From: Planctomycetota bacterium
GTDB taxonomy: Bacteria > Planctomycetota > Planctomycetia > Planctomycetales > Planctomycetaceae
Assembly (NCBI GenBank): GCA_017859815.1
Contig: JAFMMM010000013.1
Coordinates: forward strand, 1-35,943
Length of the DNA stretch: 35,943 nucleotides
Direction of reading: 5' to 3'
In this document: positions 11,780 through 35,530 of the stretch, piece by piece
Layout: the number at the start of each line of letters is the position of its first letter
Position numbering within the stretch: the first letter of the stretch is position 1
Notes under the pieces: model-generated
The model's database searches: none
Told to the model about the DNA's origin: nothing
What the model saw: the letters and a program-made list of their open reading frames with translations, nothing else
Translations under genes and position numbers: made by a program

Positions 11780-12652
11780 TCACTCCGCTTCGATGGATTC
11801 CTGATCGCCTGCTGCGGTGTTCTCGGATGGAACACCAGCCCCGCTGTCTTCGTCTGCAGACGTTGCTTCGTCTGCAGACGTTTCTTCCGGCTCGCTCTCC
11901 GCCTCAGCTGGCTGGTCGTCCAGTATCAGGCGAGCCTTAGTGATGTAATCGAGATTTGGAAACGTCGGAATGAGATATCCATTTCCTTTGACCTCGATCA
12001 TCTGCTGATTGGGAGACTCTCCGTATTCCGGATTGATGGCATCGACATTCGGCATGCCCTCCACAATTCTGCCAAAGGGTGCAAACCCGCTGCTGTCAAG
12101 ATTTGGGTTGTCTGCGAAGTTGATGAAGAGCTGGCTGGTCCTTGTGCCTGGTCCTGCCGTGGCAAAGCTGACATAGCCTCGCTTATTGCTCTTCAGGACC
12201 GGGTCATCTTCAATATTGACGTCCCATTTTGCGTTTTGACTGGGTGAGCCGGCGATTCCAAACTGAACGACAAAGCCGGGAATCACGCGGAAGAATCGAC
12301 AGTCGTCGTAGAAGCGGTCTTTCACAAGTTCGTAGAACCGGTGAGCACCGATCGGCGCCCATTCGCGGTTCACTTCCATGACAAAATCACCCTTCGAGGA
12401 TTCGAACTTCACGCGAAAAATTCCTGTTGGCGGAACTTTGCTTTTTTTGAGCGGATTCTCGCCCAGAGCCAGTGGCAGATCTCCAACGGCGGGTTCGGAT
12501 GCGGAGGCCTGCGGCGGCGGCGTCTGTCGTTCGTAGATTGCCTGTTCGACAAGGCCTGCAGGAAGTCCCCCGGGTGCCTGCTGTTCTTCACAGCCAACAG
12601 CAAAGAACAGCAATTGAAGACCAAGCAGCAAAGTTGTGTACTTAGAGTTCAT
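11780..12652 (-). CDS. Cyclophilin-type peptidyl-prolyl cis-trans isomerase, lipoprotein
   Basis: The ATG at 12652 gives 290 residues and is preceded by AGAAAGAAAG; it places a clean lipoprotein signal (LLFFAVGC) with Cys21 as the lipid-bearing residue. A longer start nine codons upstream is less fitting. After a Pro/Ala-rich linker, the cyclophilin domain starts near residue 80 and contains the signature FFRVIPGFVVQFG with the catalytic Arg122, followed by the substrate-groove segments SFATAGPGTRTSQLFIN and FAPFGRIVEGM. The enzyme should catalyse proline isomerisation in folding proteins outside the inner membrane. The C-terminal 45 residues are a low-complexity acidic tail rich in Glu, Ser and Ala, with a short TSADEA duplication. 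Confidence 0.9.
   Translation of the reverse strand: MNSKYTTLLLGLQLLFFAVGCEEQQAPGGLPAGLVEQAIYERQTPPPQASASEPAVGDLPLALGENPLKKSKVPPTGIFRVKFESSKGDFVMEVNREWAPIGAHRFYELVKDRFYDDCRFFRVIPGFVVQFGIAGSPSQNAKWDVNIEDDPVLKSNKRGYVSFATAGPGTRTSQLFINFADNPNLDSSGFAPFGRIVEGMPNVDAINPEYGESPNQQMIEVKGNGYLIPTFPNLDYITKARLILDDQPAEAESEPEETSADEATSADEDSGAGVPSENTAAGDQESIEAE
11851..11880. repeat. Tandem pair of a 12-bp palindrome inside the cyclophilin tail
   Basis: CGTCTGCAGACG occurs at 11851-11862 and again at 11869-11880, a period of 18 bases. It encodes the duplicated TSADEA segment of the acidic tail. Slippage within the coding region explains it adequately. Confidence 0.6.
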
Positions 12653-28142: not shown

Positions 28143-31100
28143 TCAGTCTTCTCCTCCTGCTGCCGCCTCAGTTCCCTTTGCCGCTGGAGGCTCGTAGACA
28201 ACAGGTCCAACATCTTCCAGAAGTGTGGAATAATTCATGAGTGCATCACGAACTGCGATGACATGGGCATCCGGATCACCGGAGAACTTGTCCGGGAACT
28301 GTTCGGCGTTCTTCGCGAAGTTCACAGGCATTGAGGTGTACGGTGTGATCCATGATGGTCTGTACAGCCAAAGCTTCACCCAGTCCGAACGCAGACGATT
28401 CTGCACCTCGTTCAGGTTTGGTCCCTGAATGTCTTTCGCCGGGTCAGAAGCTTTGAACTTCCTCGAGCCAACTGAGTGACACTTGATGCAAAGGGGACCG
28501 TTCAACAACGCCCATGAGTCGCCGAGGTAGTCCTGCCCGGTCTGCATGTGCCCGGCAGATACAAGCTGCTGCTCACGCTCGGTCAGGTAATCCTTGTCCC
28601 GAGGCAGTTGTTCTTCGTAGGGGAATTCAGCACCATCCACTGCAGCAAAATAATTTGCCAGCGTCCGAGCCTCCTGAGGCGTCATGTTGAACCGCGGCAT
28701 TCTCAGCACAGTGGTGTATCGAATTTTTCCTGGCTCCAGCAGGAAGGAATACAACCAGTCCGGCTGAACCTTAATTCCCTCCTGGTAAAGCGGTGGCGGT
28801 GCGGCCTGCCATGCCAGTTTACGCTGATCAACCTTTCTCCAACTGAGCAGTTTGTCAACCAGCAGTTCAGCAAAGCGACCGCCGCGAGCATCCTGGTAGT
28901 CCAGCAATTGTGACTCAAGGAACGTCACCGGGGACCCCGGAAGCAGCAGGCGGCTTTGTTCGGCATCGCCGAACTCAACGGGTTCCCAAACTTCAAAACC
29001 ATACTCGCGGAATTCGGGATCTTCTTCCTCGGGATCGGGCTTCAGCGTCACCATTCCATGGAAGCTGGCAACGTCAAGATCCACCTTGTCACCGAAAAGT
29101 TCCATGCTGTGCGTTTGGCCGGTTCGCCCGTTACTCGGTGGACGAATCTTCAACAACTGCTCGAGGGCGACCTGGTGATCACCTGCTGTCAACGGAGTCG
29201 ACTCAAGCTCGGTCAAGTCACCAGCGAAGGTGATTTTCGGCAACTCGACAACATGGCAACCCGTACAGTTGTACTTTGCGAGGAGGAACTCGCCCTCGAT
29301 GCGCGTTTTCTCTCGCACATCCGGTTTGTAGACGTACTCCGTGGGTGGTGGCTCAGCAACCAGCCCAAGCACAAACGTGGCGATTGCCTCGATCTCGTCT
29401 TCCTGCAATGGGAACTTCGGCATTCGCAATCGGTCTGCATAACCCTTTGTATCAGCCTTTTTGTAGTCATAGCTGCGAGGTCCCCGAAGCTTCTGCCACA
29501 GGAATCCGGCTCGCCCATGCCGTTGCAGGCTGTCAAAGAAGTAGGAGGCAGACAGCTCGCTCTCAGCTTCGTTCTCGTCAAATTGTCCCTGTTCCAATCC
29601 GCCAGCCTTCGCCTTCTTGCGAGCAGTCAGGATCCGTTCATGCGTGGAATCGAATTCTGAGGAGGCAGGTTCACCATGGTGGTGCAGGTACTCTTCAATA
29701 TGTTCGAAACCCAGTTTGCTGGTGTCTTTTCGACCCCAGTCCTGAAGTGCCACGCCGATTGGTCGGGCATCTTCATAACCTGGAACTTCGTGGCAGGCGT
29801 AGCAGCCATATCGAGAGATTGTCTTCTTTCCTACGTACTGTAGCTTCATCTGCTTCCAGGCTTCCGCATCAGCAGGACTGCCATCTTCAGTGGCCAGTAC
29901 GATTTCATCGCCGATCACACTGTCCCGTGCCTGCGGAAAGTTGCCGGAAGCCGCGATTTCCTGAGCAGCTTCCAGTCCAAACCGGCCCTTGGAGAGATAC
30001 AGGACAACCAGTTCGTCAAGTTCCGAATCGGTGTACTGCGATGCCGGGAATGTTTCCGCATCACCCTGAGCCAACAGGAATGCCGTGATGTCGGCGGCGG
30101 GATCGATCATTGTTTCGCCGTCGGTGTCCGGATAGGCATCCAGGTACAGGTTCGGCATCCGAGTCTTTGTGTGGTATCGCTCCGGCTCGCGGAGCCATGT
30201 GTAAAGCCAGTCGCTGAACGACGGATCATCTGAGTTACGCTTCAGTTTGCGATGAATATCGCTGATGTTCGGGCCAAAGTCTGCTTTGGACTCCGGTACC
30301 GCGGAGTGCTGATGACAGGCCACGCAGCCACGCTCTGTGAAGAGCGTCTCGCCGCGCGAAACATCCGGGGCGTAGCCATCTGCCGGAACCAGCAGTTCCA
30401 TTTCCTCAGAACCCGTCATCAGTACGGTGGCAATACCAGCCAGCTCGGCAGCCTCTAACCCCGCGGTGTGGGATGCTTCAGCATCCGGGAGGTGATCATG
30501 CAGAGCAAAGAATTGAGGCATCTTTGTCGACGGACGATATCTCTGCGGAATCTCCGTCCAGTACTGGATGAATTCCGAAGTGGTTTTCTGAGCGATGTGA
30601 CGAAGACTTGGGCCCACCTTTCTCAACTTGCCTGCTACCTGGCTTGGGTCCGCCGCAACTGCAGCAGCTTCCTCAGCAGTCTGTGGCTCAACACGCAAAT
30701 CCGGCCCGATCGCTTCGCCGCCATCGTATCCGTGGATCTCATGACAGCCATAGCAGCCATACTTCTGGATCAACTGCCAGCCGCGTACGACTTTGGGAGC
30801 CGACGCCCCGTACTCGGGATGAACTCCCAGCTCCTGGACGCTGTGATGACACTTGATGCATCCTGACTCGATGAACCGCTCCGGCTGCATCGGGTACTCC
30901 CAGAAGTGGTTTGGGTGGAACCCATATTCGTGGTGCCATTCGTCTGCGATCTGAGGATCGTTTGGAGAGTGTTCGGCGTTTCCGAAACTGGTCCCTGAGC
31001 CCTGCCCATCATGGCAAATCGTACAGCCGAATTTGCCAACCGGGTGCGGGGAGGATGCTGAACAGTACAGATCGGTGTTGGGATGGGTGGAGAACGGCTG

Positions 31101-31988
31101 GGGAAACTCACCCGCCTTGACCCAGTCCTGCAGGTCCTCGGTTTCCGGATGTCCGGCCGGATATGCCGGGACCCCACCTGAAGCCGTCTTATCGATGTTC
31201 AAGTGGCAGGTGCGACACCTGTCAAAGCGAGCGATGGTTGCCATTCCAAGCGTGATATCAAGGCCTGGGACCCAGTCCTGAACCACTTTCAGGTGGGAGT
31301 TGAACCCATCGATAATTGGCAGTTCCATCAGCGAGCGTTTTAAGCTGCTGACCGTTGACGACGGGGCAATGTTTTCCAGTGAAGCCAGGACACGGTCTGC
31401 CTCAGCAGTGACTTTCGTCTTTTCTGCTTCAAGATCAGCGACTCGCGATGTCAGTTGCTTTACCTTCGTTTGCAATTCAGCAAGCTTGTCCTGCTCCATA
31501 TCGATCACGATTTGCTTGTCGTCGCAAATCTTCTGGCGTTCTTCGTACGCGAGTAGCGCACTCCGCAGCACTTCATCAGGCATGGCATCGCGAACTGCGA
31601 GGTCGTAGTTGGCTCGGGCTTCATCACGATCCGAGTTTTGGAATTTCAGTTCCAGTTCCAATCCCTCAACCAGCCGGATTTGGGAATCGAGCGACTCAAA
31701 CAGCCCTGCGTCGTCCAGTTTGGCTTCCGTCAGTTCGCTCTGAGCCTCGGCGAGTTCCGCGTCGAGCCTGTTGACCTCATTCTGATACTGCTTCGTTTGC
31801 AGATTCTCGAGATCCTGGGAGCGCATGCTGGCGTCAATGTCAAACGCGGTGCGTTGATAGGAACGCCACTCGTCATCCTGATCCTGTTTGAGCATCAGGA
31901 ACACAGACAACAGCATAATGAGGCTGCTGGCCGCGAAAACCGCGTGGAGTGACTTTTGATTCCAACGATAGTCGTCTGTTGCTGGCAT
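28143..31988 (-). CDS. Membrane-anchored coiled-coil octaheme cytochrome c of the quinol oxidation complex
   Basis: The protein is 1281 residues. Residues 14-33 form one membrane helix, and residues about 50-205 form a long heptad-like coiled coil. Eight CXXCH motifs follow: 258-262, 322-326, 377-381 and 412-416 (a compact group), then 555-559, 729-733, 908-912 and 1167-1171. Hemes 4 to 8 are each followed by a Met-Pro motif (Met490, 611, 856, 1097, 1220), the pattern of class-I cytochrome c modules with His/Met ligation. Hemes 1 to 3 lack this and are probably bis-His or high-spin. Its place between the cytochrome b genes and the lipoprotein carriers suggests it replaces cytochrome c1/f and conducts electrons toward the oxidase. 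It ends one base before the next start codon. I know no characterised protein with this exact layout. Confidence 0.85.
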   Translation of the reverse strand: MPATDDYRWNQKSLHAVFAASSLIMLLSVFLMLKQDQDDEWRSYQRTAFDIDASMRSQDLENLQTKQYQNEVNRLDAELAEAQSELTEAKLDDAGLFESLDSQIRLVEGLELELKFQNSDRDEARANYDLAVRDAMPDEVLRSALLAYEERQKICDDKQIVIDMEQDKLAELQTKVKQLTSRVADLEAEKTKVTAEADRVLASLENIAPSSTVSSLKRSLMELPIIDGFNSHLKVVQDWVPGLDITLGMATIARFDRCRTCHLNIDKTASGGVPAYPAGHPETEDLQDWVKAGEFPQPFSTHPNTDLYCSASSPHPVGKFGCTICHDGQGSGTSFGNAEHSPNDPQIADEWHHEYGFHPNHFWEYPMQPERFIESGCIKCHHSVQELGVHPEYGASAPKVVRGWQLIQKYGCYGCHEIHGYDGGEAIGPDLRVEPQTAEEAAAVAADPSQVAGKLRKVGPSLRHIAQKTTSEFIQYWTEIPQRYRPSTKMPQFFALHDHLPDAEASHTAGLEAAELAGIATVLMTGSEEMELLVPADGYAPDVSRGETLFTERGCVACHQHSAVPESKADFGPNISDIHRKLKRNSDDPSFSDWLYTWLREPERYHTKTRMPNLYLDAYPDTDGETMIDPAADITAFLLAQGDAETFPASQYTDSELDELVVLYLSKGRFGLEAAQEIAASGNFPQARDSVIGDEIVLATEDGSPADAEAWKQMKLQYVGKKTISRYGCYACHEVPGYEDARPIGVALQDWGRKDTSKLGFEHIEEYLHHHGEPASSEFDSTHERILTARKKAKAGGLEQGQFDENEAESELSASYFFDSLQRHGRAGFLWQKLRGPRSYDYKKADTKGYADRLRMPKFPLQEDEIEAIATFVLGLVAEPPPTEYVYKPDVREKTRIEGEFLLAKYNCTGCHVVELPKITFAGDLTELESTPLTAGDHQVALEQLLKIRPPSNGRTGQTHSMELFGDKVDLDVASFHGMVTLKPDPEEEDPEFREYGFEVWEPVEFGDAEQSRLLLPGSPVTFLESQLLDYQDARGGRFAELLVDKLLSWRKVDQRKLAWQAAPPPLYQEGIKVQPDWLYSFLLEPGKIRYTTVLRMPRFNMTPQEARTLANYFAAVDGAEFPYEEQLPRDKDYLTEREQQLVSAGHMQTGQDYLGDSWALLNGPLCIKCHSVGSRKFKASDPAKDIQGPNLNEVQNRLRSDWVKLWLYRPSWITPYTSMPVNFAKNAEQFPDKFSGDPDAHVIAVRDALMNYSTLLEDVGPVVYEPPAAKGTEAAAGGED

Positions 31989-32106: not shown

Positions 32107-33426
32107 TTAGATATTGAAAAACCACTCCGGGATACCCACGATGTACTTCAGTGAAAAAGCCCAGCGAAGCAGCATCTTGATCGGCAGGATCGCCATCCAG
32201 AGGATCAGATTGGAGAACACGAGGAACCTGATCAGCCCCATTCTTATGAAGTAGCTACGCAGAATCGTCAGTCCCATCAGGGGTGGCAGTACTGCGAAGT
32301 AACCAATGATCAGAATGATGCCGGGAGACTCCCGCAGCAAAATTGTCAGCAGGTCCGAGCCTTTGGGGATGCCCCCTAACCAATCCCAGAAGAATTCACT
32401 CAGGTTGACGTTGTTGGCCGCTTCGACCTTGTGGACATCCCAGTACTCGTAGATCCCGAAGAAGTTCCAGTTAGGACCACGCAGGAATGTCCCGAGAACG
32501 ATTAACGCAACCCACAGCGGCAGGAACCCGAAGAGGAAGGTTGAAACGGCAAAAGCTCGCTCTTTGAAGCAATAGTAACCGTTGCCGACTTTGTTGAAGT
32601 CAATGTAGGGAATGGCCATTAACCCCCCCAGAATGATGCTGGGCAGCACAACGCCGGCAAGCCATGGGTCGAAGTAAACCAGCATCTCCTGCAGTCCGAG
32701 GAAGTACCACGGTGCTTTTGATGGATTAGGAGTCTTCACAGCCGAGCCGGGCTCTTCCAGAGGCGCCTTCAGTGCGATTCCCCAGAAGATCAGCAGAGCA
32801 GTCAACAGAACCATGCAGATCAACTCGGTGTAGACGAGGTCTGGCCACACCAGAACCTTCTCGTTGTTCTCCTCTTCGAACAGCGGTCGCCCTTCAGCCA
32901 TACGACGGTCGTTGTCAACCGCACGGCGAAAGTAGATCCACGTGCAAAATGCAACGATAAAGAGCATTGCAACAATGGGGACATTGTCCGGCTTACCAAC
33001 AATCTGCCGGAAGTCGTAGTCTGTCATGCTCAGCCCCATGAATAACAGGGACAGGTTCAGCAGAACCCACGACACTTTGGGCTTGGTCCACCATTCACGC
33101 AGGGCAATCAAGGCCCAGAAACCAGCGATGGAAAGGGCGAAATACAAAACCGGGTTGGAAAAGTACCGGTCAAAATTCACCTTGAAGACTTCTGGCATGT
33201 AGATCAGGAAGCCGTCCGGCGGATACGTAAAGTGATAAAAACAGACCATTCCGAGGATGGATGAGTAGATCGCCCAGGGTGTTGCCCGAGGCAATCCGTT
33301 GGCGTACTCCCCATCATGATGAAAGGCCTGAACAGTCCAATACAGATTCATCAACAGCATGACGAGGTAGTACCAGCCGAGTCCGACAAGTACGCTCGCT
33401 GTGAGATCCGGGTGTGCATTCAGCAT
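32107..33426 (-). CDS. Cytochrome b C-terminal (subunit IV-like) protein with an extra N-terminal membrane domain
   Basis: The protein is 439 residues. Residues about 190-310 match the C-terminal domain of cytochrome b (subunit IV of b6f): VWPDLVYTEL, then NPSKAPWYFLGLQEMLVYFDPWLAGVVLP. The quinol-site PEWY motif is APWY here (238-241), so the usual Glu is absent. Before this, residues 1-170 contain about five hydrophobic segments (near 12-33, 48-66, 92-110, 118-133 and 150-167) that are not part of standard subunit IV. The last 75 residues add further helices. It should form the quinol oxidation site together with the b6-like protein encoded 160 bases upstream. A 118-base gap separates it from the octaheme gene. 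Confidence 0.85.
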   Translation of the reverse strand: MLNAHPDLTASVLVGLGWYYLVMLLMNLYWTVQAFHHDGEYANGLPRATPWAIYSSILGMVCFYHFTYPPDGFLIYMPEVFKVNFDRYFSNPVLYFALSIAGFWALIALREWWTKPKVSWVLLNLSLLFMGLSMTDYDFRQIVGKPDNVPIVAMLFIVAFCTWIYFRRAVDNDRRMAEGRPLFEEENNEKVLVWPDLVYTELICMVLLTALLIFWGIALKAPLEEPGSAVKTPNPSKAPWYFLGLQEMLVYFDPWLAGVVLPSIILGGLMAIPYIDFNKVGNGYYCFKERAFAVSTFLFGFLPLWVALIVLGTFLRGPNWNFFGIYEYWDVHKVEAANNVNLSEFFWDWLGGIPKGSDLLTILLRESPGIILIIGYFAVLPPLMGLTILRSYFIRMGLIRFLVFSNLILWMAILPIKMLLRWAFSLKYIVGIPEWFFNI

Positions 33427-33586: not shown

Positions 33587-34360
33587 TCACAACGGCTGGC
33601 TGATACCACCATCCTTGCGAACTCTCCAGAAGTGGATCGCGATCAATCCGCTCACAACAACCGGGATTGCAACACAGTGCAGAATATAGAAACGGTTCAA
33701 AGTCGCTTCCCCAACGAACCGACCGCCAAGCAGAAGGAATTTTGCGTCAGAAGCGTTCGTGATCAGTTCGTATCCACTGGTGTTGAAGACCTGAAAACCG
33801 GGACCCTCTACACCAAGGAACGGTGTTGCCTTGGCCATGTTGGAGCCCACGGTGATGGCCCAGATCGCCAACTGGTCCCACGGGAGCAGATAGCCGGTAA
33901 ACGAAAGCAGTAAGGTGAGTACCAGAAGCAGAACCCCGATGACCCAGTTGAATTCCCGGGGCGGCTTGTAGCTGCCCGTCAGGAAGACACGGTACATATG
34001 CAACCAAACCGTGATCACCATCGCATGAGCACCCCAGCGGTGAATCTCACGCATAATTCCCAGCGTCTGGACATCGCGGAGTGCCTGAATGTCGTAAAAC
34101 GCCCACTCCAGAGTCGGGCGGTAGTAGAACATCAGCAGAATGCCTGTAATGGCTTCCACGAGGAACAGGAAGAACGTGATTCCACCCATGCACCACGTAT
34201 ATGACAGGGCGATACCCTGTTGTTTGATGGACACGGGATGAAGATGCAGGAAAAAGTTCGTCAGCATCACCACGACACGGTTTCGCCGGTCGGTAGGTGC
34301 TGGATGACGAAACACGCTTTTCCAGACTTGTGAGTTTCTGATGTAATCGCCGACTGACAC
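33587..34360 (-). CDS. petB: Cytochrome b6-like N-terminal subunit (two b hemes, possible covalent heme c)
   Basis: This 257-residue membrane protein carries the two b hemes of the quinol:cytochrome c reductase. The ligand pairs are His107/His121 in REIHRWGAHAMVITVWLHMYR and His228/His243 in FYILHCVAIP...IAIHFW; spacings of 14 and 15 residues are those of cytochrome b6 rather than bc1. Cys57 in YTWCMGGIT aligns with the b6 cysteine that binds heme c_i/c_n, and the flanking FYYRPT segment also matches b6. The start is a GTG at 34360 preceded by AGAGG. The symbol petB is used by similarity to b6f; the complex is not photosynthetic. It follows the Rieske gene by 75 bases. Confidence 0.92.
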   Translation of the reverse strand: MSVGDYIRNSQVWKSVFRHPAPTDRRNRVVVMLTNFFLHLHPVSIKQQGIALSYTWCMGGITFFLFLVEAITGILLMFYYRPTLEWAFYDIQALRDVQTLGIMREIHRWGAHAMVITVWLHMYRVFLTGSYKPPREFNWVIGVLLLVLTLLLSFTGYLLPWDQLAIWAITVGSNMAKATPFLGVEGPGFQVFNTSGYELITNASDAKFLLLGGRFVGEATLNRFYILHCVAIPVVVSGLIAIHFWRVRKDGGISQPL

Positions 34361-34435: not shown

Positions 34436-35530
34436 TTAGCCAACACCCACAAAGCTTGATGGATTCGCCCACTGTCCAAGCTCACGCTGGAACTTGACGC
34501 TCTTGTCCACTTCCAGCATGCCGTCTTCAGAAAGCCTGAGACCAACACGTTCCAGCGGCCGTGGAGCAGGGCCCTCGAAGTTGATGCCGGTCTTGTAGAA
34601 ACCGGAGCCATGGCAAGGACATTTGAACTTCTGTTCGCCTTCCAGCCAGTTCGGTGTGCAGCCAAGGTGGGTGCAAACGGTGCTGAGTGCGTAGATGCAG
34701 CTGACGCCGTCCACGGTGTCGTTGACGACCCAGATGTTGAACTGGGCCTGCCACTTTGTGGATACCATGCCCGGGGCGTAGTCAGTAGGCGGCCCAATCT
34801 TGAATTTTGTGGGTGGTTCTACCAGGACATTCGGCATCATGAATCGTGCGAGTGCCAGCCCGGAAGCCGCAGCAGTGGCAGCGAATGATGTCCATGCGAT
34901 GATAATCGGCGTACAGATGGTTGCGGTGACAGCCGACAGAAATGATCGCCGTTGCACAGCAGCTTTTGGTGCTGCGGGTAACTTGCCAGGCAGGGGGCGT
35001 GATGGCAAAACCACCGCCGGTTTCGCAGCTGTGCCATCCTTCGCCGAGCGGGCAGCACGGATCATTTCGGCAGGCGACATCCCGGCGGCAGCAGTTGTGT
35101 CGGCCTTGGCTGCTGCCGCTGGGTTTCCCTTTGCTGCGGCCGGTTTGGCCGCTGCGGGCTTTGCGCCAGCTCCACCACCGCGAATCGACGCCAAAATGTC
35201 TGCGGTGCCGGCCGGTGCTGCGGCCGGCTTGGCCGCTGCGGGCTTTGCGCCAGCACCACCACCGCGAATCGACGCCAAAATGTCTGCGGTGCCACCCGGT
35301 GCTGCGGCCGGTTTGGCGGCTGCGGGCTTTGTGCCAGCACCACCACCGCGAATGGACGCGAGAATGTCTGCGGTGCCGGCGGGCGCTGGAGCGGCCGCTG
35401 GTGCAGCAGGCGTTTCCTCAGGAGCCGGTGCGGCTGCAGCAGGGGCTTCATCAGCGTCACCGGCGGCGGCAGCTTTTTGAGCACGAATCTTCGCGAGGAT
35501 TTCGTTTGTGGATGGCTTGGAATCGGACAT
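34436..35530 (-). CDS. petC: Rieske [2Fe-2S] protein with long repeat-bearing N-terminal extension
   Basis: The ATG at 35530 gives 364 residues; an in-frame ATG at 35644 would lie at or before the likely transcription start. The C-terminal domain has both cluster motifs, CTHLGC (Cys286, His288) and CPCHGSGF (Cys304... His307), plus the GPAPRPL proline loop. A twin-arginine motif, QRRSFLSAV (Arg194-Arg195), precedes the single membrane helix. The first 190 residues are unusual: Ala/Pro-rich, with three 28-residue tandem copies containing DILASIRGGGAG and related NEILAKIR and EMIRAARS units at either side. This part should remain cytoplasmic. The Rieske protein moves electrons from quinol to the c-type cytochrome of the complex, and the gene is first in the cluster. 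The symbol petC is by similarity. Confidence 0.92.
   Translation of the reverse strand: MSDSKPSTNEILAKIRAQKAAAAGDADEAPAAAAPAPEETPAAPAAAPAPAGTADILASIRGGGAGTKPAAAKPAAAPGGTADILASIRGGGAGAKPAAAKPAAAPAGTADILASIRGGGAGAKPAAAKPAAAKGNPAAAAKADTTAAAGMSPAEMIRAARSAKDGTAAKPAVVLPSRPLPGKLPAAPKAAVQRRSFLSAVTATICTPIIIAWTSFAATAAASGLALARFMMPNVLVEPPTKFKIGPPTDYAPGMVSTKWQAQFNIWVVNDTVDGVSCIYALSTVCTHLGCTPNWLEGEQKFKCPCHGSGFYKTGINFEGPAPRPLERVGLRLSEDGMLEVDKSVKFQRELGQWANPSSFVGVG
35126..35377. repeat. Three tandem 84-bp repeats in the Rieske gene
   Basis: A near-identical 84-base unit occurs three times in a row, for example GCGCCAGC.CCACCACCGCG at 35163, 35247 and, with one change, 35331. Each encodes 28 residues of the form GTADILASIRGGGAG.KP followed by Ala/Pro. 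The unit is a multiple of three, so copy number can change without a frameshift. Confidence 0.9.

Follow-up and report, generated by a model that had tools for sequence, protein, structure and literature searches.

Repeated motifs on the N-terminal tail of a planctomycete Rieske protein suggest a docking code shared with an SH3/KOW-like protein

Extra folded subunits or fused cytochromes are the usual explanation for tethering within bacterial respiratory supercomplexes. Planctomycetes are known for an unusual cell organisation. Among the described systems closest to the one considered here is PetP, a subunit of SH3 type that the cyanobacterial cytochrome b6f complex carries on its cytoplasmic side (PMC9342900; PDB 7r0w, 2n5u). 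The three-helix Rieske protein of actinobacteria (Sco2149) has its Tat motif before the third helix (PMC5449189). PopZ of Caulobacter, which defines DUF2497, combines a client-binding N-terminal helix with a disordered linker and a C-terminal oligomerisation region (PMC9512792). Finally, microdomains within the disordered region of RNase E recruit other proteins (PMC4435900).

The window (the whole stretch of DNA analysed, 35,943 nucleotides) contains, near its end and on the minus strand, an operon for a bc-type complex. The Rieske gene comes first; behind it lie two genes that together encode a split cytochrome b, and one for a c-type cytochrome of 1281 residues. The relevant features are these:

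28143..31988, minus strand: large c-type cytochrome subunit, 1281 aa (PF00034, E 1.5e-14)
32107..33426, minus strand: cytochrome b, C-terminal half, subunit IV-like (PF00032, E 4e-4)
33587..34360, minus strand: cytochrome b, N-terminal half, b6-like (PF00033, E 2e-41)
34436..35530, minus strand: Rieske iron-sulphur protein gene, 364 aa (PF00355, E 4e-8; CTHLGC and CPCHGS motifs)
34439..34813, minus strand: Rieske domain, predicted outside the cytoplasm, residues 240-364 (Pfam, Foldseek)
34838..34942, minus strand: single membrane helix, residues 197-231 (AlphaFold helix)
34934..34957, minus strand: twin-arginine motif VQRRSFLS (R194-R195 invariant in 36 sequences)
34982..35008, minus strand: conserved LPxKPLPGK-type stretch preceding the Tat motif, residues 175-183 (conservation 0.86 across residues 174-184)
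35048..35080, minus strand: motif 5, MSPAEMIRAAR, residues 151-161 (predicted helix 153-162; conservation 0.81)
35126..35377, minus strand: 84-bp tandem array of three 28-residue units, GTADILASIRGGGAG plus Ala/Pro/Lys linker, residues 52-135 (TRF)
35180..35209, minus strand: motif 4, GTADILASIR, residues 108-117 (predicted helix 109-117; conservation 0.83)
35264..35293, minus strand: motif 3, GTADILASIR, residues 80-89 (predicted helix 81-90; conservation 0.64)
35348..35377, minus strand: motif 2, GTADILASIR, residues 52-61 (predicted helix 53-62; conservation 0.81)
35480..35512, minus strand: motif 1, STNEILAKIRA, residues 7-17 (predicted helix 8-25; column identity 0.91)

The protein is a Rieske subunit of a cytochrome bc/b6f complex. 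Its 2Fe-2S domain has both ligand motifs, scores above the PF00355 cut-off and finds its best structural match (Foldseek) in the Kuenenia Rieske protein kustd1480, at 52% identity; the assignment also agrees with the membrane anchor, its Tat motif and the adjoining cytochrome b genes. We compared the window genome (G000) with relatives that include Planctomycetaceae, Pirellulales, Isosphaeraceae and similar groups. Cytochrome b lies downstream of the Rieske gene in 58 of these relatives. A conserved partner gene was also sought upstream and none was found, the neighbours on that side being variable. The reading frame starts at the ATG at 35530 (N-terminus MSDSKPSTNEILAKIR...); an upstream TTG, which would extend the open frame to 402 aa, was discarded because this ATG is conserved in relatives. 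Long antisense frames across the repeat were read as a by-product of composition. Elsewhere in the window, a short 18-bp tandem repeat of 2.2 copies occupies 11848-11887.

The tail of the Rieske protein comprises residues 1-193, ahead of the twin-arginine pair, and contains five short motifs, three of them on the 84-bp repeats. TRF places the array at 35132-35388, with a period of 84, 3.1 copies, 91% matches and a score of 437. An initial annotation of the same DNA had placed three 28-residue copies at 35126-35377, which is correct to the base, and had noted NEILAKIR and EMIRAARS. The former lies at residues 9-16 and the latter, as AEMIRAARS, at residues 154-162, both indeed ahead of the twin-arginine pair and the membrane helix. 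The AlphaFold model, made with 36 aligned relatives, predicts tail helices at residues 8-25, 53-62, 81-90, 109-117 and 153-162, joined by linkers that are mostly at pLDDT < 50. These are followed by one membrane helix (197-231) and a confidently predicted Rieske fold. Bacterial Rieske proteins normally retain that membrane helix as an anchor, and the topology of a Tat-inserted single-helix Rieske protein is established. Since a Tat motif and a single membrane helix follow the tail, it would be retained in the cytoplasm. The repeated short helices of the model and the side expected from this topology support a cytoplasmic-side tail, as the annotation had proposed.

Motifs of this type far exceed chance expectation. 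The window tail has 4 core motifs, compared to 0.01 in shuffled tails. Across 64 Rieske tails, the seven-residue core occurs on average 3.2 times per tail, versus 0.017 in shuffles of the same composition (~190-fold). Motif-bearing tails, with 1-5 detected copies, are present in 64/79 of the Rieske proteins examined. Column identities within the genus are 0.91, 0.81, 0.64, 0.83 and 0.81 for motifs 1-5, motif 1 being the most conserved motif of the tail, and 0.49-0.57 for the linkers. Random decay of the motif in close relatives, which the annotation had named as evidence against its proposal, is thus not seen. Corresponding values are 0.66 for the membrane helix, which four of the five motifs exceed, and 0.94 for the Rieske part. 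Between the three DNA copies, all changes in the motif decapeptide are synonymous (L codon CTC/TTG, S codon TCC/TCG), and amino-acid changes are confined to the linkers.

Copy number varies in frame, as had been anticipated: the 17 Rieske sequences of the genus, including a truncated one, have 2-4 detected core motifs, and motif spacing differs in the 84%-identical sister. The outer motifs are fixed in position across the genus. The middle ones vary, reading DILAAAR, DILAxxK or DIMAxIR in many same-genus genomes, and are homogenised to DILASIR in the window. Recent local duplication thus acts on a motif that is apparently kept by selection. The motifs are maintained while the linkers drift.

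A motif profile (A2) run against the window genome and its genus rose above background only in the Rieske tail. In other families, the same profile also matched a small protein consisting of a 70-residue domain and a C-terminal tail with 1-9 units. The window genome has this protein too (G000:C185:4509-5084, L285), and it is the only one besides the Rieske protein to carry the motif there, in variant copies (SPLDKIR). Its three units, of the form GGSPLDKIR, were confirmed by an SPLxxxR profile, which also touches Rieske motif 5; this motif is intermediate between the DILAxxR and SPLxxxR forms, and its match to the latter is weak (E 0.09). A narrow DNA pattern for the motif gave eight other matches in the window genome, all rejected as isolated singles; one of them starts a protein reading SREEILARVRKAL, which we take to be LutC-type.

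The second carrier is conserved in planctomycetes (homologues L181-L210), with no Pfam family above cut-off. Weak but consistent matches to SH3_15 (best 2e-4) and KOW (0.08) were obtained in its 70-residue domain, each in 3/18 members, and a PDB search with this domain gave no match. We refer to it as SH3/KOW-like, or SH3-like for short. The tails of these proteins contain 202 units, compared to 0.6 in shuffles. One tail, in G084, has both SPLEQLR and DILAQLR units, and the Rieske tail at L010:4569-5765 has five GGSPLDQIRAGGGG-type repeats (SPLDQIR), an independent expansion of the other motif form. Given these two cases, a single module seems to occur in two forms, SPLxxxR and DILAxxR; the two profiles align with P 8e-5. 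Searched against the PDB, the motif profile returned only Bub1/Mad3 GLEBS-type peptides (E about 1 to 2), which were taken as chance. A search of the freely accessible literature for the motif letters returned nothing, and hence no prior description was found.

We then looked across the class. In a sample of 149 genomes, a close Rieske protein was detected in 70 and the SH3-like protein in 86. Both genes are present in 44 genomes, where about 40 would be expected, and at this chance level of co-occurrence the two genes are independent of one another. For the arrays the picture is different. In 15 families that possess both genes, arrays on the Rieske protein and multi-copy arrays on the second protein are present together in ten (f1, f5, f9-f16) and absent together in five, with tails short or motif-free (f3, f4, f6, f7, f8). 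For G056 and G140, the Rieske side of the pairing comes from profile matches. G038, G064, G116 and G147 have only one unit each on the second protein by the counting pattern, and the G138 variant SKLEQAR escaped that pattern. This pairing has a Fisher P of 3e-4 with kinship ignored, and it may trace to a single evolutionary event. Two f7 genomes form an exception, with a single SALExAR on the SH3-like protein and the Rieske motif absent.

Some genomes, in genera g34 and g17, keep the SH3-like array without this Rieske protein. Conversely, the Isosphaeraceae-type Rieske proteins of family f2 (L335-L337, L069, L070, L075) have a different repeated unit, GRPLTLKEKLAAAR, in genomes where the SH3-like protein was not detected. 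These cases argue that neither carrier needs the other everywhere. In genus g34, the tails of the SH3-like protein contain LSTAEKLALLR, similar in form to GRPLTLKEKLAAAR. At the search thresholds applied, neither gene was detected in ten sampled f1 genomes (genera g11 and g13), and an SPLxxxR search of four of them found no unit. In a sample of 199 genomes from the phylum, motif matches came only from the window's class. Judged from these sequences, such a tail is general within part of the Planctomycetia and no peculiarity of this locus. The initial annotation, whose interpretation is partly supported, had noticed neither this breadth nor the second carrier.

In single lineages the motif appears on further proteins, most of them redox enzymes. 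A 1371-residue protein of G153 (L279:1592-5704, minus strand) has eight KPNPQEMLAAMKAKK-type repeats between cyclic-nucleotide-binding and 4Fe-4S domains. We considered a conserved array on this 4Fe-4S/cNMP protein and rejected it: the repeats are present in G153 only, and the other 29 homologues read are without them. G026 encodes a protein (L239:364-3267) in which domains of a nitrite/sulphite reductase, a Rieske protein and an FAD/NAD reductase are fused; one STADILAAAR unit sits in the linker that separates its Rieske from its FAD domain. G018 has one unit, on a cytochrome c assembly protein. In G110 (L284:8891-9763) and G130 (L241), there is a protein composed almost wholly of PSVAAMLAAVRG units and ending in GGWFARLF; the G110 gene lies ~1.8 kb ahead of genes that we read as coxB, coxA and ctaA (cytochrome c oxidase subunits II and I, and haem A synthase). 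Single sporadic units could be due to chance; the arrays are not explained in this way.

One motif in many copies, with drifting linkers and several unrelated carriers, is probably the pattern of a docking motif that works through avidity. We propose that the Rieske tail serves multivalent docking in the cytoplasm and either has a receptor in common with the SH3-like protein or binds that protein directly, tying the bc complex to a cytoplasmic assembly, and we see the chances of this as about even. Upstream of the Tat motif and membrane helix, and retained in the cytoplasm, the tail would expose five short helices, of the form [ST]xx[DE][IM]LAxxR or related to it, separated by disordered linkers of Ala/Pro/Lys. 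Individually the helices would bind weakly, with repetition boosting avidity. It follows that selection would preserve the helix and its multiplicity, whereas linker sequence and the precise number of copies would drift and tandem repeats in the DNA would give way to new ones. As the module is common to the Rieske and SH3/KOW-like proteins, whose tails vary in step across families, a shared receptor or mutual binding seems most likely. The helices might be bound by a common receptor, by the SH3-like domain or by one another. Through a shared receptor or direct binding, the bc complex would be linked to a cytoplasmic assembly at the membrane, with possible effects on its placement or on electron transfer.

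Other readings of the tail deserve consideration. Its Ala/Pro/Lys/Gly composition, tandem DNA repeats and variable length are what one would expect of a flexible spacer, a bristle or linker of low complexity that binds nothing specifically and has grown by slippage in GC-rich repeats. However, the motifs are far over shuffles, are kept across families, change only synonymously between the repeat copies and recur on unrelated proteins, and we regard a simple spacer as quite improbable. The hydrophobic moment bears on two further ideas. For seven motif variants it is indistinguishable from that of shuffled sequences and not above it, and the helices are short, Ala-rich and not clearly amphipathic. 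It is therefore very unlikely that these predicted helices, even with their Ile/Leu and Arg, are amphipathic membrane binders by which the tail would lie flat against the inner surface of the membrane. The same features weigh against homotypic clustering, in which motif helices would bind each other and gather bc complexes and the SH3-like protein into clusters or condensates without a separate receptor. This idea gains from the occurrence of the motif on both proteins, from the persistence of the SH3-like array where this Rieske protein is missing and from the architecture of a known condensate scaffold, also a helix with a disordered linker (PMC9512792); on balance we think it improbable.

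A comparably small probability attaches to a device for export or assembly, in which a chaperone of the cytoplasm or a factor for Fe-S/haem assembly would recognise the motifs and keep the Rieske protein back until cluster insertion, prior to Tat export. The tail directly precedes the Tat motif, and among the motif carriers of single lineages are further proteins that handle Fe-S or haem (4Fe-4S/cNMP protein, fused nitrite reductase, cytochrome c assembly protein), as such a device might predict. Yet sister-family Rieske proteins without such a tail are presumably exported, and no Tat signal or cofactor motif was seen in the main second carrier, the SH3/KOW-like protein. Extremely unlikely, finally, is membership of the pole-organising PopZ/DUF2497 family, with the tail putting the complex at the pole. 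The initial annotation had raised this kinship from a likeness of ILASIR to a short helix of PopZ, whose first helix has similar ILA.IR letters, and no search result supports the kinship. The DUF2497 profile matched 0/36 Rieske proteins at E up to 10, and a search of the window genome and 20 relatives gave no match while the Caulobacter control was positive. Nor was a PopZ-type C-terminal helical oligomerisation region found in the tail, after which the Tat helix and Rieske domain come next.

Returning to the docking tail, the presence of motif copies on the Rieske protein and on one uncharacterised protein suggests a docking code that has not been described before. More tentatively, and with distinctly lower probability than for the tail itself, part of the Planctomycetia may use a short helical docking code on the Rieske protein, a PetP-like SH3 protein and occasionally other redox proteins, gathering the bc complex and cytoplasmic electron carriers at the membrane. 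If true, such a code, built on an array of one short motif that is confined to a clade, faces the cytoplasm on the bc complex and recurs on an uncharacterised protein, would be a different way of arranging respiration. A ten-residue motif and two genes offer a concrete handle for a partner hunt, and the conserved planctomycete SH3/KOW-like protein gains a first testable role.

How does the tail compare with the known systems? The closest solved Rieske domain, Kuenenia kustd1480 (PDB 9rk3), was solved as a construct of the soluble domain. As in actinobacterial Rieske proteins, the Tat motif lies far from the N-terminus. The internal Tat signal pointed out in the initial annotation is real, and its principle is not new in view of that precedent (PMC5449189). 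The actinobacterial protein has two Sec-inserted N-terminal helices, whereas here a predicted soluble, disordered tail is followed by one membrane helix. Like PopZ, the tail would use a short helix beside a disordered linker as a docking unit; unlike PopZ, it repeats the unit several times, on a membrane redox protein, with neither an oligomerisation region nor a DUF2497 match. The parallel with RNase E lies in short segments spaced by disorder on a membrane-associated enzyme, binding being established there and putative here. RNase E recruits RhlB, enolase and PNPase, whereas our tail repeats one motif. For the second carrier, PetP is a suggestive precedent. Both are small proteins, of SH3 type in the case of PetP and putatively so in the planctomycete carrier; PetP is linked to b6f on the cytoplasmic side, and such a link is proposed for the planctomycete protein. 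A profile comparison, made post hoc, gave a weak likeness between them (score 18.2 versus at most 16.0 in 100 column shuffles; probability 7%). The planctomycete protein departs from PetP in its long tail of motifs and in being present also where this Rieske protein is missing.
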